Shown piece after piece: positions 31,477 through 37,589 of a stretch of 64,000 nt of DNA. The stretch spans positions 1 through 64,000 of the forward strand of contig JAQXBM010000057.1 in the NCBI GenBank assembly GCA_029252405.1, given 5' to 3'. The notes below the pieces were generated by a model. That model saw nothing but the letters and a program-made list of their open reading frames with translations, ran no database searches and was not told where the DNA came from. A program made the position numbers and the translations under genes. The DNA is from Crocinitomicaceae bacterium. Its GTDB lineage: Bacteria; Bacteroidota; Bacteroidia; Flavobacteriales_D; Crocinitomicaceae. How positions within the stretch are numbered: position 1 is the stretch's first letter; each line of letters begins with the position of its first letter.

Positions 31477-33159
31477 TCAGCCTGTTATCATCTTAGCAGC
31501 AGAAAGCAAGGTCAAGACCTTTGGATAATCCATCGGATCGCCGCTGTTAGCCATGTTTTCTACGTACTTCTTTAAGCTTGGGATAGAATCCAAGCCTTTC
31601 ATGTTTTCTTTGATGTAATCTTGATAAAACGCGCTGAGTTCCTTATTCGTAGAAAACCAGTAGGGAAGAGGATTCATGTGATTCTTGGTCGTCAAACCCT
31701 GTTTTTTGCTGAGGCTCGTTTTGTGAACTGTTTTCTGCATGGCTAAATTCCAAAACTCCTTTCTAGAGTAATTCGCCCCTTTAAACTTGATGTTTCCTTT
31801 GGCGTTTACCGGAACTTTCGTCGATTCCCAAACATACGAAGCGGCTTTTGGATATTTTTTATTGATCCATTTTTTGTAAAGTCGATGACGCTCTCTTTGT
31901 TCCGTAGGAATGGACAAACAGAACTCCCAGAAGTCCAAATCAACAAACGGAGAGAGCGATTCTGATTTCGTTTGTGTCGGTAAGGCACCATTGTTACCAG
32001 CGATCATACATCGATTGTAGTGCTTGTAGATCTCCTGATCTTGATAATCGATTTTGAGGTCGTATTCCTGACATTTCGGGCAGTTCGTAACGGCATTGAG
32101 CGTAATTGGATCGTTGAGGTATTTCTCCCCACCGAAGGTTCCAACGTTTGAGTTTCCGCATAATCCTGAATGAAGAAGTCCAAAGCTCGTAAAGTCCAAA
32201 TGATCCAAAAGACTAGTTCCATGGGCAACGCCAAAATAGTTGATGTTCCCTCCAGTCAATTGCGTTGCGCGATCAACATTCTTCAAAAAGACTCCGTTGT
32301 CCAATGATTTGAAAATCCATTCGTGCTTTAAATCTGAAGCGATCTCTTTGGCAATCGTTTCGTCCAAATAATCCGTTTGAGAAAAGGTGATGTTCAACTG
32401 ATCCGTATATCCCATATCATGAGCTACACAGCAGACCATGCGCGTATCGAGCCCTCCGCTGAGTGCCACCAAATGACGGTACCCATATTCTTTGTCCTTT
32501 TCAAAAATGTCGCGAATGGCTTTTCGAAAACGACTGTCAATTCCTTCAATCGCTTCATCATCGGAAATTTCCGTTGGTTCTTTCTTAAGGCGATAAAAAA
32601 GCTTCACTCCCTCGGACTCTTTCGAATAAGTGAAGTAATATCCTGGGACCAAACGATGCACTTCCTCTACGATCGTCATGTCCTCGATTGTGTAACCGTA
32701 GTTCAACACGAAATAAGCAGCCTGCTCGTTTAGGGTCGGCTTCAAGGATGCGTGATTTCTGAGATACTCGGTCATGTCGTAACAATTCGAGCTAATCACA
32801 AGAGTTGTCTCGTTGCTGGCATGGAACAGCTGTTTGGAACCCACATGATCAGCGTATGCCACTATTTCACCACTCGTTTTATCTACAGCTATTCCCCAAT
32901 AGCTGCCCTTCATCTTGGTAAAGAAGGTTTCTTTATTTTTCGTGTATTCGTCGAGGAGAAATTCTTGCCAATCAGACGTGCTTGCACTGCTCAGCAATTC
33001 CTTTTTGTTCAGGACAACACCATCTAAAATGAAGAGTAATTCTTCTGTGTCAACCAATACCTTGTCGTTTTCAAATTTGTCCGTTGTCGAATAACTGAAC
33101 GATACGATTTGATGCTGTTGCTTGTCAAATTCTAAAAGGAAGTGGCTTTTTTTGCTCAT
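31477..33159 (-). CDS. Asparagine-synthase-like protein without glutaminase Cys
   Basis: 560 residues from the ATG at 33159; a TTG at 33198 would give 573. The N-terminal half resembles a degenerate class II amidotransferase fold (KGSYWGIAVDKTSGEIVAYADHVGSKQLF), but the start has no Cys after Met, so it cannot hydrolyse glutamine. The C-terminal half has the ATP pyrophosphatase loop SGGLDTR followed by the rest of an AsnB-like synthetase domain. It resembles asparagine-synthase-related proteins of surface glycan or peptide clusters, which adenylate a carboxylate. Substrate unknown. It starts just past the tau-coding frame of dnaX. Confidence 0.8.
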   Translation of the reverse strand: MSKKSHFLLEFDKQQHQIVSFSYSTTDKFENDKVLVDTEELLFILDGVVLNKKELLSSASTSDWQEFLLDEYTKNKETFFTKMKGSYWGIAVDKTSGEIVAYADHVGSKQLFHASNETTLVISSNCYDMTEYLRNHASLKPTLNEQAAYFVLNYGYTIEDMTIVEEVHRLVPGYYFTYSKESEGVKLFYRLKKEPTEISDDEAIEGIDSRFRKAIRDIFEKDKEYGYRHLVALSGGLDTRMVCCVAHDMGYTDQLNITFSQTDYLDETIAKEIASDLKHEWIFKSLDNGVFLKNVDRATQLTGGNINYFGVAHGTSLLDHLDFTSFGLLHSGLCGNSNVGTFGGEKYLNDPITLNAVTNCPKCQEYDLKIDYQDQEIYKHYNRCMIAGNNGALPTQTKSESLSPFVDLDFWEFCLSIPTEQRERHRLYKKWINKKYPKAASYVWESTKVPVNAKGNIKFKGANYSRKEFWNLAMQKTVHKTSLSKKQGLTTKNHMNPLPYWFSTNKELSAFYQDYIKENMKGLDSIPSLKKYVENMANSGDPMDYPKVLTLLSAAKMITG

Positions 33160-33204
33160 TGCGAATGGACTTTCTCTTTGTTCCGATTTCGATTTCAAAT
33201 CAAC

Positions 33205-34937
33205 TTAAAACTCAATATCTAGATTGAAGGTTTTCTTCAAGGTATGCAAATTCGGGTTTTTACGTGCCAAGGCTGCAAATTTATCTTTCCCCGTTTGGAA
33301 TTTCACTTCCTCATCTGGGTTTTTGGTGATTTCCAATTCCACCTTGATGTTGTAATTGCGTAGCTCTTTTCTGAGATATCCCAATAATTCTGAAACCCGC
33401 AAACGAATCGTATCAATCTGAACTTGATTGTCCACTTCAAGAATAAATAAATCGTCTTTTCTAGGGAGCGGATCGCGTTTGATCAAGGCATTGTAGTACG
33501 TTTTATCGCCTTTTTCCTTGAGCATATGTGCAAACCGTCGCCACGCCATTTTGAAGTCATCGATGTGATAATCATTCATTGGCATGTTGCTGAAATCCAA
33601 TGGAGCGCCATCTTCACCTTCATCTTTTGGAGCCATCATTTTGTTGATGGACAAGCTTGAAGTATACTTTGAATTTCCACTTGGAGCCGATAAAACCTTC
33701 GGTTCTGGGCGATCGAATACCTTTTTGATTGGCTTTTTCGCAGCGGGTTTGGCCACTTTCGTTTGACTCGCCTTGTCTCTTAAATCCTGATTTGGGAACG
33801 GAATTATCTTAACTGGGTCCGTTAGGAGTTTTTTTTTTGAAGCTCCTGATTGATGGAACACAATTGCATAAGCGCCATTTCGACGAGCAAGCGCTGATTC
33901 TTGGCGGCCTTGTATTCGACATCAGCCTTACTTAAGACACCCAATGCTCGTAACAAGTTAGGTGCATCAATTTCTTTCGATTGAGCAACGTATTTCTGTT
34001 GAATGGATTCGCTGACCTCTAACAAATTCGCCGTACGAACATCTTTACAAACTAATAAGTTACGGTAATGATTGGCCAATCCAACAATGAAATTATGACC
34101 GTCAAATCCTTTTTCGATAATGTCGTTCAGCATCAACAATGCCGCTGGAATATCTTCCTTTTGAGCACTCTCAACAATTCTGAAATAGTAATCGTAGTCA
34201 AGAATGTTGAGGTTATTGATGACGTCTTCGTAGGTGATTGAATTCCCTGAGAAAGTCACAATTTGATCAAAAATTGACAATGCGTCTCGCAACGCGCCAT
34301 CGGCCTTTTGAGCAATGATGTGCAATGCATCACCCTCCGCAGCAATTGTTTCGTTTTGAGCGATGCGCATTAAGTGATCGGCAATGTCTTTTACTTTGAT
34401 TCGATTGAAATCAAAGATTTGACAACGCGATAAAATCGTTGGAATGATTTTGTGCTTTTCCGTTGTCGCAAGGATGAAAATTGCGTGTTTCGGTGGCTCT
34501 TCCAAGGTTTTCAAGAACGCATTGAAAGCCGCAGTTGAGAGCATGTGAACCTCGTCAATGATGTACACTTTGTAATCTCCAAGTTGCGGTGCAATTCGAA
34601 CCTGCTCAATCAAATTACGAATGTCTTCCACCGAGTTATTCGACGCAGCATCCAATTCGTAAACATTCAATGATGAACCCGTGTTGAACGATTCACATGA
34701 ATCACATTCATCACACGCTTCCATTTTTTCTGTTCGATTGAAACAGTTGATCGTTTTTGCTAGAATACGCGCCGTCGAAGTTTTCCCCACACCGCGCGAT
34801 CCACAGAACAAAAATGCCTGTGCCAAGTGATCACTTTTGATCGCATTCTTCAATGTCGAAGTAATGGACTGTTGTCCAACAACGGTATCAAAAGTTTGGG
34901 GTCTATATTTTCGTGCGGAAACGACAAAATCGCTCAT
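33205..34937 (-). CDS. dnaX: DNA polymerase III gamma/tau, two products by -1 frameshifting
   Basis: The zero frame (34937 to 33822) encodes 371 residues: Walker A GSRGVGKTSTARIL, zinc Cys cluster (CFNRTEKMEACDECDSC), DEVHMLS, and the SRCQ sensor, then a helical region, ending EL-QKKNS. This is gamma-sized. A -1 shift on the A10 run (33829-33838) leads to a second open frame to 33205 of about 207 more residues, which carries a basic linker and a C-terminal domain (residues MAWRRFAHMLKEKGDKTYYNAL, DNQVQIDTIR) like tau domain V, giving about 577 residues in all. Tau links polymerase and helicase. An assembly error in the homopolymer is the main alternative. Confidence 0.85.
33797..33847 (-). 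promoter_or_regulatory. dnaX: Programmed frameshift signal in dnaX
   Basis: Reading 5' to 3' on the minus strand: AGGAG (33847-33843), a four-base spacer, ten A (33838-33829) and C, which contains A-AAA-AAC in the zero frame (33834-33828). The zero-frame TAA follows two codons later. AACGGA (33823-33818) can pair with TCCGTT (33802-33797), a 6-bp stem starting 4 bases past the slippery heptamer. E. coli dnaX uses the same three parts (SD-like, A-AAA-AAG, hairpin), and Thermus dnaX uses A9 transcriptional slippage. Confidence 0.75.
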
Positions 34938-35006: not shown

Positions 35007-36251
35007 TTACCTTCTAGGTGAGATCGTGACAACGGCACCATTTGAAGGAGTCCAAAGGTCAATTCCCGCAGGAATATCGAAACGTGAGTCTTCTGATAAT
35101 TCAGCAACTTCAGCAACGTTTTCATATAGGATCGTTCGGACTTCTATTTTCGCTTGATCGACAAAAATCCAGTTCACCTGATTAACTGCTTCAGCATTTC
35201 TGGTCCAACATTTCAAGTCATTCGCAGCTCTGAGTGGAGCTCCCCAACATCCTTCACCTGCGTATACAATCCCGGTGGAATCGTTTCGGATAAAGCCTTC
35301 TTCAGAGCCAAATCCCTCACTTTGAATAATTGGCCATGTCACTTTGCAGGTGTGGGAGTCATTCTCCAAGCACAAACGAACGTTCTTGTATTTCTCGAAA
35401 AGTGGAACGAAGTTTCGATACTCCGTATTCATTTCTTTTTTGTGCGCTACGTGTGCACGAATTGGTCGGTGATATTGCGGAATTTGCCAGTTGAAATGAG
35501 CGTGTGTTTTGAGCGAGTTTCTCAAGAACAACTTCTGACGTCCAAATTTGTAAATCTCAGAATTGAGGGAGATGATATTCAGCAAAGTACCGCCAAATTG
35601 AACATCGTAATATATGCGCTTGTGCGGAACGTTGAACAAGTTGCGAATAGAGCGATTTGTCAATTCGTGGTTCCCACGCGTTACTACCAATGGAGTAATT
35701 CTTCCATCTTCAGCAATTGTGTGTTCCCAATCATCGAACCATTCAACCCATTGTTTTGGTGTATCCAATCCGGTGAAATCGCCATTGAAAAGAACTGCAT
35801 GAGGCTTCAATTTAGCGACCATTTTATTTCCTTTTCGCCGTGTTTCGGATAAATCGCGGGAATCTCCACCTGCAATAAATGAAAGTCGCTTCGTCGGAAC
35901 ATCGGGAACGGTAGAGAAATAGTAAATCGCTGAGTAGCCTTCCGAATCTTTGATCGTGAAGTAATACTTCTGATTGGCTTTCAAATTGGTCAATCGCGCG
36001 AAATGTGTATTCATGGATTTTGCGCCATTCGACGTTTCAATTCCCACCGAATCTGAGAAATTGTATTCATTCGGTTTAGTCGTATCAAAGTGCAGCGAAG
36101 GATTTTTACCGGATAGTTGATTCCAAGCAATCGTTGCCTCATACGAAGCATTCGTGTTAAACATTACACGCACGTAATTCACATTGCCCATCAAACTAGT
36201 TGAGGCAAAAACGATTAGGACGAAAAGGAACTTTCTCAGCATAAAAATCAT
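35007..36251 (-). CDS. Calcineurin-like metallophosphatase with N-terminal Fn3-like domain
   Basis: 414 residues from the ATG at 36251; an ATG at 36242 also fits. The signal peptide ends near residue 22. An N-terminal beta-sandwich of the purple-acid-phosphatase type (residues about 25-110, ARLTNLKANQKYYFTIKDSEG) precedes the metallophosphatase core: GGDSRD, LFNGDFTG, VTRGNHE, then IPQYHRPIRAHVAH for the two-metal site. It is secreted to the periplasm or beyond, and acts on phosphate esters of unknown kind. Promoter at 36260-36267. Confidence 0.88.
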   Translation of the reverse strand: MIFMLRKFLFVLIVFASTSLMGNVNYVRVMFNTNASYEATIAWNQLSGKNPSLHFDTTKPNEYNFSDSVGIETSNGAKSMNTHFARLTNLKANQKYYFTIKDSEGYSAIYYFSTVPDVPTKRLSFIAGGDSRDLSETRRKGNKMVAKLKPHAVLFNGDFTGLDTPKQWVEWFDDWEHTIAEDGRITPLVVTRGNHELTNRSIRNLFNVPHKRIYYDVQFGGTLLNIISLNSEIYKFGRQKLFLRNSLKTHAHFNWQIPQYHRPIRAHVAHKKEMNTEYRNFVPLFEKYKNVRLCLENDSHTCKVTWPIIQSEGFGSEEGFIRNDSTGIVYAGEGCWGAPLRAANDLKCWTRNAEAVNQVNWIFVDQAKIEVRTILYENVAEVAELSEDSRFDIPAGIDLWTPSNGAVVTISPRR

Positions 36252-36617: not shown

Positions 36618-37589
36618 ATGCTCAAAGAAAATCAACAGACAATTCTAGAAAAAACAGGAAGCTCTGCGATTAATAAGATCGAGACGATTCAGGAACTATG
36701 GAGTGGTTATGGATCAATTTTAAGAGTGTATTTATCGGGTGGCCAATTCAATTCGGTGATCGTCAAAAACATTGTTCAGCCAGAATTGTCCAATCATCCG
36801 AGAGGCTGGGATACAGAAACCTCTAACGCGCGAAAAATCAAATCCTACGAAGTAGAAACGAACTGGTACAAAAACTACAACGATCAGTGTGACGCTGATT
36901 CCCGCATTCCGAAGTTCATTCATTTTTGGGAGAATGAAGGAGAGTATTTTATTCTGTTGGAAGATTTGAATGATGCAGGATTCCCTTTGAGAAAATCGAA
37001 TTTGAGCTTGGATGAAATCAACGGGTGTTTGAGCTGGTTGGCAAATTTTCATGCCACTTTTTTGAACACTGATCCCGATGGTTTATGGGAGGTTGGAACT
37101 TATTGGCACTTGTCAACTCGACCTGATGAATATCAAAAAATGGATACAAACGATTTAAAAAAGGCAGCGTCAAAATTGGATCATGAATTGAACAATTGTA
37201 ACTACCTCACGCTGGTTCATGGAGATGCGAAGGTGGCGAACTTTTGCTTCGGAGAGGCTTCTAATCAGGTCGCTGCAGTGGATTTTCAATATATTGGAGC
37301 GGGATGCGGAATGAAGGACGTAGCTTATTTTTTAGGCAGCGTTTTAAGTGAAGATGAATTAGCGTTATTGGAAGAGGAGTTGCTGTCAACATACTTTAAA
37401 TATCTTCGAAACGCCGTTCATTCAAAAGAGGTGAAGGTTGATTTTTTCGATCTGGAGCAAGGATGGAGGAGATTGTATCCAATTGCTTGGGCCGATTTCA
37501 CCCGCTTTTTAATGGGATGGATGCCGACACATCAGAAATTGAATCGATATAGCGATAAGATGGTGAAGATGGCTTTGGAGCTGATATAA
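36618..37589 (+). CDS. Phosphotransferase of the aminoglycoside/choline-kinase fold
   Basis: 323 residues. The kinase catalytic loop is LVHGDAKVANFCF (HGD-x4-N) and the metal motif is VDFQYIGAGCGMKDVAYFL, which takes the DFG-like place. ILLEDLNDAGFP marks the hinge. It looks closest to the ecdysteroid/CHK-kinase-like group. It should phosphorylate a small hydroxyl compound. No resistance gene context is visible, so an antibiotic-resistance role has no support here. It follows the small lipoprotein gene. Confidence 0.85.
   Translation: MLKENQQTILEKTGSSAINKIETIQELWSGYGSILRVYLSGGQFNSVIVKNIVQPELSNHPRGWDTETSNARKIKSYEVETNWYKNYNDQCDADSRIPKFIHFWENEGEYFILLEDLNDAGFPLRKSNLSLDEINGCLSWLANFHATFLNTDPDGLWEVGTYWHLSTRPDEYQKMDTNDLKKAASKLDHELNNCNYLTLVHGDAKVANFCFGEASNQVAAVDFQYIGAGCGMKDVAYFLGSVLSEDELALLEEELLSTYFKYLRNAVHSKEVKVDFFDLEQGWRRLYPIAWADFTRFLMGWMPTHQKLNRYSDKMVKMALELI

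Follow-up and report, generated by a model that had tools for sequence, protein, structure and literature searches.

The window analysed here, a 64,000-nucleotide stretch of a Crocinitomicaceae genome, carried on its minus strand a dnaX gene in which the zero frame ended at gamma length and a second frame continued. The features of this locus, in window coordinates, were as follows.

33822–34937 (-), zero frame of dnaX, a gamma-length clamp-loader subunit of 371 aa (ORF and profile matches)
33205–33861 (-), open -1 frame, very probably with the tau-specific C-terminal part after the run (33828–33205) (profile, predicted fold)
33829–33838 (-), run of ten A (A10), the proposed slippage site, conserved (sequence, comparison across loci)
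33828–33834 (-), A-AAA-AAC heptamer, made of run bases plus one following base; the last position is not conserved (sequence, comparison)
33822–33824 (-), TAA ending gamma in the zero frame (sequence)
33809–33811 (-), TAA closing the +1 frame soon after the run (sequence; same pattern in relatives)
33843–33847 (-), AGGAG, not conserved past near relatives (sequence, comparison)
33797–33823 (-), 6-bp inverted repeat (AACGGA at 33823–33818, TCCGTT at 33802–33797), not conserved (sequence, comparison)

The 3′ end of the zero-frame ORF read CAG GAG CTT CAA AAA AAA AAC TCC TAA, giving C-A10-C at the end of gamma and a stop two codons past the run. The -1 frame was open to 33205 over 218 codons, about 207 of them past the run, and this reading of the junction, coordinates included, agreed with a preliminary description of the same DNA. 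Both non-tau frames were closed near the run by TAA codons, at 33824–33822 and 33811–33809. The heptamer lay in phase at 33834–33828, and AGGAG, encoded by the codons CAG GAG, was located 8 bases 5′ of it. A or T tracts of at least 10 were rare (18 in the whole 4.28-Mb genome). Among the 17 others, one (L417) was flanked in a single frame by at least 100 open codons on each side, while three at or near contig starts were not fully judgeable. Within the 64-kb window A9 was not in excess, with 5 matches against 10.58 expected. L417 (G000:C52:21745–21754, minus strand) was thus the one other A10 of this kind in the genome, in what looked by eye like a carboxypeptidase-like protein, and had no frame break.

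The neighbouring genes, as identified by Pfam, were ordinary: asparagine-synthase-like (31477–33198, minus strand), purple-acid-phosphatase-like (35007–36251, minus strand) and an EcKL/APH-like kinase (36618–37589, plus strand). Eight promoter-like sites were counted near dnaX against 3.7 in shuffled sequences (sd 2.0), and one terminator-like site against 1.8. An Rfam search gave no match at the junction and one sub-threshold snoRNA match elsewhere; no tRNA was found in the window, nor a near match to dnaX in a plasmid collection.

In a profile search the 371-residue zero-frame product carried the clamp-loader domains. The NCBIfam model PRK14971 (614 positions) matched both pieces in order, at 1–368 (E = 1.2e-205) and at 431–613 (E = 5.3e-19). 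Since Pfam gave no family for the tau part and a PDB profile search gave weak matches only, with unrelated names (best E 0.028), a predicted fold was used for it. The -1 frame piece consisted of a weakly conserved linker followed by a well-predicted domain (pLDDT 94–98, in blocks from residue 91 to 180). The best fold matches of this domain were 4tps_B, an entry with DnaA domain I (Z 8.1, rmsd 2.7, 80 residues aligned), then DnaA 2e0g (Z 7.3), RbfA 2dyj_B (Z 7.3) and DciA 7ykm and 8a3v_C (Z 7.1). RbfA, an unrelated KH-like protein, thus scored level with DnaA domain I and DciA, and no tau chain was among the matches listed; with Foldseek the best E was 0.016. DciA, DnaA domain I and DnaX domain V have been described as having a common KH fold (PMC9912922). 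These results indicated that the -1 frame very probably encodes the tau-specific domain, as had been suggested earlier for this frame.

For comparison, dnaX was searched in 150 genomes of the same family, with a match in 146 and 143 loci used (G012, G124 and G149, with partial hits, were left out). From the rest of the order 71 of 84 matching genomes were taken, the 13 lowest-scoring being omitted. The class was sampled as 30 genomes in list order (G247 with no match and G251 with a partial hit were omitted), 20 further genomes of which 19 were chosen for short frames, and 20 chosen for long frames; owing to this selection by frame length, class-level shares of the states are not population shares. 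The phylum was sampled by 30 genomes hand-picked to spread families, one of which was dropped as it had no anchor, and named genome records contributed 80 loci, of which 76 remained after merging. Loci sharing the same 180 bases at the junction were counted once. The tau frame was assigned from the tau-part profile together with open-frame length, replacing a first classification by open-frame length that had placed some loci wrongly (e.g. L068, L330 and L151).

A run of at least nine A was present in 127 of the 143 loci of the family, and 123 combined it with tau in the -1 frame, including three single-contig genomes (G059, G070 and G096). The remainder comprised two loci with zero-frame tau by profile (G051, with A11, and G126, with further breaks), one with +1 tau (G102, which has A9), one unassigned and 16 without the run. 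An A11 would join the two frames, as the preliminary description had stated; A9, which it also named, would not, and A8 would. Several relatives with 11 or 12 A (e.g. L008 and L111) retained the break, because in them the base after the tenth A is itself A and the phase is unchanged. In L014 (G051) and L117 (G102) one base of the run flips the frame, placing tau in the zero and +1 frame, respectively. In L151 (G126) dnaX was interrupted by stops and its tau part by a second frame break; this is likely a poor assembly.

Across Bacteroidota, 331 of 388 non-redundant loci had a run of 9–13 A no more than 140 bases from the end of domain III. Its length was 9 in 22, 10 in 280, 11 in 25, 12 in 2 and 13 in 2 of them, and exactly 8 in none; 57 loci, 16 of them from the family of the window, were without it. 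Among loci with at least 55% G+C, 16 of 26 retained the run. The first Lys-Lys pair after domain III was AAA AAA in 297 of 303 loci, where the Lys codon usage of the individual genes predicted 166.3, and other Lys-Lys pairs in dnaX were AAA AAA in 64 of 131 cases.

A tau frame could not be assigned in 18 of the 388 loci, six of them with the run. Of the 325 run-bearing assigned loci, 192 had -1 tau, 112 had zero-frame tau and 21 had +1 tau. An uninterrupted dnaX with no A-run, which the preliminary description had set against its reading, was not the usual condition of relatives with zero-frame tau: 112 of 138 such loci kept the run. On a FastTree tree of 231 dnaX proteins (one gene, run-less loci included) at least 35 frame switches were counted, 16 of them on internal branches, against 87.9 for shuffled labels; many of the genomes are drafts or metagenome bins, and single-tip changes may be errors. 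The first classification agreed, with 41 changes on 249 tips.

The non-tau frames were closed early in every class (one locus was skipped in this count). With tau in the -1 frame, a stop within 7 codons occurred in 189 of 192 loci in the zero frame and 173 of 192 in the +1 frame, where codon shuffling predicted 64.1 and 87.1. With tau in the zero frame the corresponding figures were 108 of 111 for the -1 frame (54.7 expected) and 100 of 111 for the +1 frame (35.9); with tau in the +1 frame they were 21 of 21 for the -1 frame (7.4) and 20 of 21 for the zero frame (12.0). Genus averages agreed with these counts. When counting began up to one codon earlier, on the first classification, the larger classes were alike, but the -1 frame of the +1 class closed within seven codons in only 14 of 22 loci (21 of 22 within 11 codons), because many of its stops sit at the threshold.

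The preliminary description had proposed an SD-like stimulator and a hairpin. In the family of the window AGGAG accompanied only 32 of 126 runs, 23 of them in two genera (14 of 18 runs in the genus of the window, 9 of 17 in a second genus and 9 of 91 elsewhere in the family), and a 6-bp stem of any sequence followed the run in 16 of 126 loci against 14.05 expected, both counts resting on the first, open-frame-length classification. The named stem, with all six pairs, was intact in 8 of 127 loci (5 of 19 in the genus of the window), near the chance value of 5.4 obtained when the 3′ halves were dealt among genomes. With one locus per genus (171), the mean fold z after the run was -0.43, between the values of two control stretches (-0.56 and -0.14); values of -0.79 upstream and -0.99 centred on the run were below the controls, but were computed with mononucleotide shuffles. 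The base 3′ of the run was free (G in 144, C in 93 and T in 93 of 330 loci). Thus, at the run, relatives shared the A tract and the frame break, as the earlier reading would have it, and not AGGAG or the stem, neither of which is supported as a stimulator. Ribosomes of Bacteroidia have been reported not to recognise SD sequences (PMC9976891). Many Bacteroidia nonetheless keep a +1 prfB frameshift with an SD-like site (PMC8710568), which is of low efficiency in F. johnsoniae (PMC12421855). Missing SD recognition weakens a ribosomal role and leaves room for one; this argument is only moderate because the prfB frameshift with its SD-like site persists in the same class.

We propose, at a probability of roughly 0.8, that RNA polymerase slipping on A10 lets the single dnaX gene of the window yield both clamp-loader forms. 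The polymerase would slip on the run and produce a mixture of dnaX messages. Transcripts with the templated ten A, or with 9 or 12, would reach an early stop and give gamma-length products, and those with eleven A, or eight, would be read into the -1 frame to give a tau of about 577 aa. Slippage in this cell, its rate and the lengths of the products are what we infer here. The preliminary description had left ribosomal and transcriptional mechanisms open; its two-product dnaX, with tau needing a shift at A10, was supported by the comparison, which on the mechanism favours the polymerase. Transcriptional slippage is preferred because the run is kept when tau lies in the zero or +1 frame. Tau in the +1 frame is beyond the reach of a -1 ribosomal shift, whereas slippage can reach it by dropping one base or adding two. 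That -1 placements outnumber +1 placements suits a polymerase that mostly adds bases. The small size of the +1 class (21 of 325) and the 57 of 388 loci without a run, 16 of them in the family of the window, are points against slippage.

Programmed -1 ribosomal frameshifting at A-AAA-AAC, with AGGAG and the hairpin as stimulators on the E. coli model but with the products reversed, is the main rival and an unlikely one, though it has its own evidence: the window has the in-phase heptamer, AGGAG 8 bases upstream of it and the inverted repeat downstream, 304 of the 325 run-bearing loci have tau in the -1 or zero frame, where it would fit a -1 shift, and Atkins et al. treated the reversed dnaX type as ribosomal (PMC5009743). 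Against it stand the lack of conservation of AGGAG and the stem, the free base after the run and the 21 loci with +1 tau. A ribosomal heptamer needs fewer A, and a run of nine or more, rather than seven, appears to fit slippage better. A -1 ribosomal shift likewise needs an early stop in only one non-tau frame, and the closure of the third frame as well seems to fit slippage better too. Some slippage is expected on any A10, and closure of the third frame may reflect selection for tidiness and is no proof of programming. With A_AAA_AAN within the run, ribosomes may contribute, and both mechanisms together are possible. An independent gene for the C-terminal part, translated from a start of its own, is very improbable. 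Three run-less relatives do have ATG or GTG at the junction, but in 118 of the 123 -1 loci of the family the tau frame had no ATG, GTG or TTG between the run and the tenth codon past it, and relatives with zero-frame tau encode one fused protein. A sequencing error or a decaying gene has still less to commend it. Homopolymers are error-prone, and G051 (A11) and G102 (A9) were single-genome exceptions of that sort; the same break in 123 of 143 loci of the family, with the tau part open and recognised by its profile, excludes chance or error and refutes this explanation at family level. Judged from these sequences, the split dnaX is not a sequencing artefact.

In the 16 run-less loci of the family (L130–L139, L141–L145 and L147, from genera g5, g9, g12, g20 and g23) tau stayed open in the -1 phase. 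In three of them an ATG or GTG of the tau frame overlapped the gamma stop (ATGA in G047, GTGA in G089 and TAATG in G023). In the other 13, no ATG, GTG or TTG was found in the stretch that starts at the preceding in-frame stop and ends with the codon overlapping the gamma stop, and all 13 had a conserved ATC by the gamma stop, before TTA, CTA or ATA. The tau frame opened just two codons before this ATC in 5 of the 13. An in-frame TTG or GTG followed within the next fifteen codons in 6 of the 13, which counts against an AUC start. Part of the conservation may stem from double coding: read in the zero frame, the A fills the third position of a Val, Ala or Leu codon, and TC opens a Ser codon. The simplest reading would be that dnaX may have split here into two coupled genes, many of the 13 using AUC to start the second. 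Among the papers listed by a literature search, which were on translational coupling, none contained the phrase 'AUC start codon'.

A broader proposal, for and against which we see about equal grounds, is that in Bacteroidota dnaX the genomic frame of tau is nearly neutral, with slippage supplying all three frames. In the loci compared, at least 35 moves of tau between the zero, -1 and +1 frames would have left the run, and the stops in the other two frames, in place. In part of the family of the window the run would have been lost, leaving dnaX as two overlapping genes expressed by termination-reinitiation, in 13 genomes apparently from AUC.

The two-frame architecture of dnaX has been known since 2013, and dnaX of the window belongs to that type. 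Antonov et al. (2013) described 17 dnaX genes in which tau needs a shift, all of them -1, with poly-A at the site in 12 of the 17 and A10 in nine; transcriptional realignment was favoured for those (PMC3711429). The window shares with them the zero-frame gamma, the -1 tau and the conserved poly-A at the junction. Compared with those 17 genes, the present set holds 388 loci with tau in all three frames. Atkins et al. (2016) put the reversed type, in 'many fewer bacteria', under ribosomal frameshifting and gave one Chlorobium candidate with E. coli-like signals (PMC5009743). In a limited search of the open-access literature, no published account was found of tau in three frames or of conservation of the run over the phylum.

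Other systems resembled the window in part. With the dnaX of Thermus thermophilus, in which slippage occurs on A9 and stops lie nearby in both other frames, it shares a long A-run, early stops in the other frames and two products; in Thermus, however, tau is the templated frame, whereas in the window it needs the slip (PMC1088944, PMC5009743). The -1 ribosomal frameshift of E. coli dnaX involves the same gene, two products and a slip on A's, but there tau is zero-frame and an SD-like site and stem-loop stimulate, whereas here neither is conserved and the A-run is longer (PMC3711429, PMC5009743). In mxiE of Shigella flexneri slippage is likewise required for the longer protein, although that gene is unrelated and the run is of U (PMC1088944). 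For poly-A-tract frameshift genes of Blochmannia, dnaX included, rescue of a split frame by slippage has likewise been proposed; the tract in Blochmannia dnaX lies inside the tau part and looks incidental, whereas the run here is at the gamma-tau junction and conserved (PMC3017870).

Comparison over a phylum bears on the question of ribosome or RNA polymerase for two-frame dnaX, and the gene supplies a set of naturally occurring frame changes at a single site. Such a dnaX can look in annotation like a short gene followed by a hypothetical gene. Genomes without the run would allow the need for the fusion of tau to the clamp loader, and AUC as a start, to be tested.

Two bins, labelled Chryseobacterium gleum (L222) and Chitinophaga pinensis (L225), had dnaX 79–80% identical to that of the window, and their labels look wrong. 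In L330, from a reduced genome of about 0.5 Mb (family code f36), dnaX ended at gamma length with no tau part recognised, and the next open frame read by eye like ribosomal protein L19.
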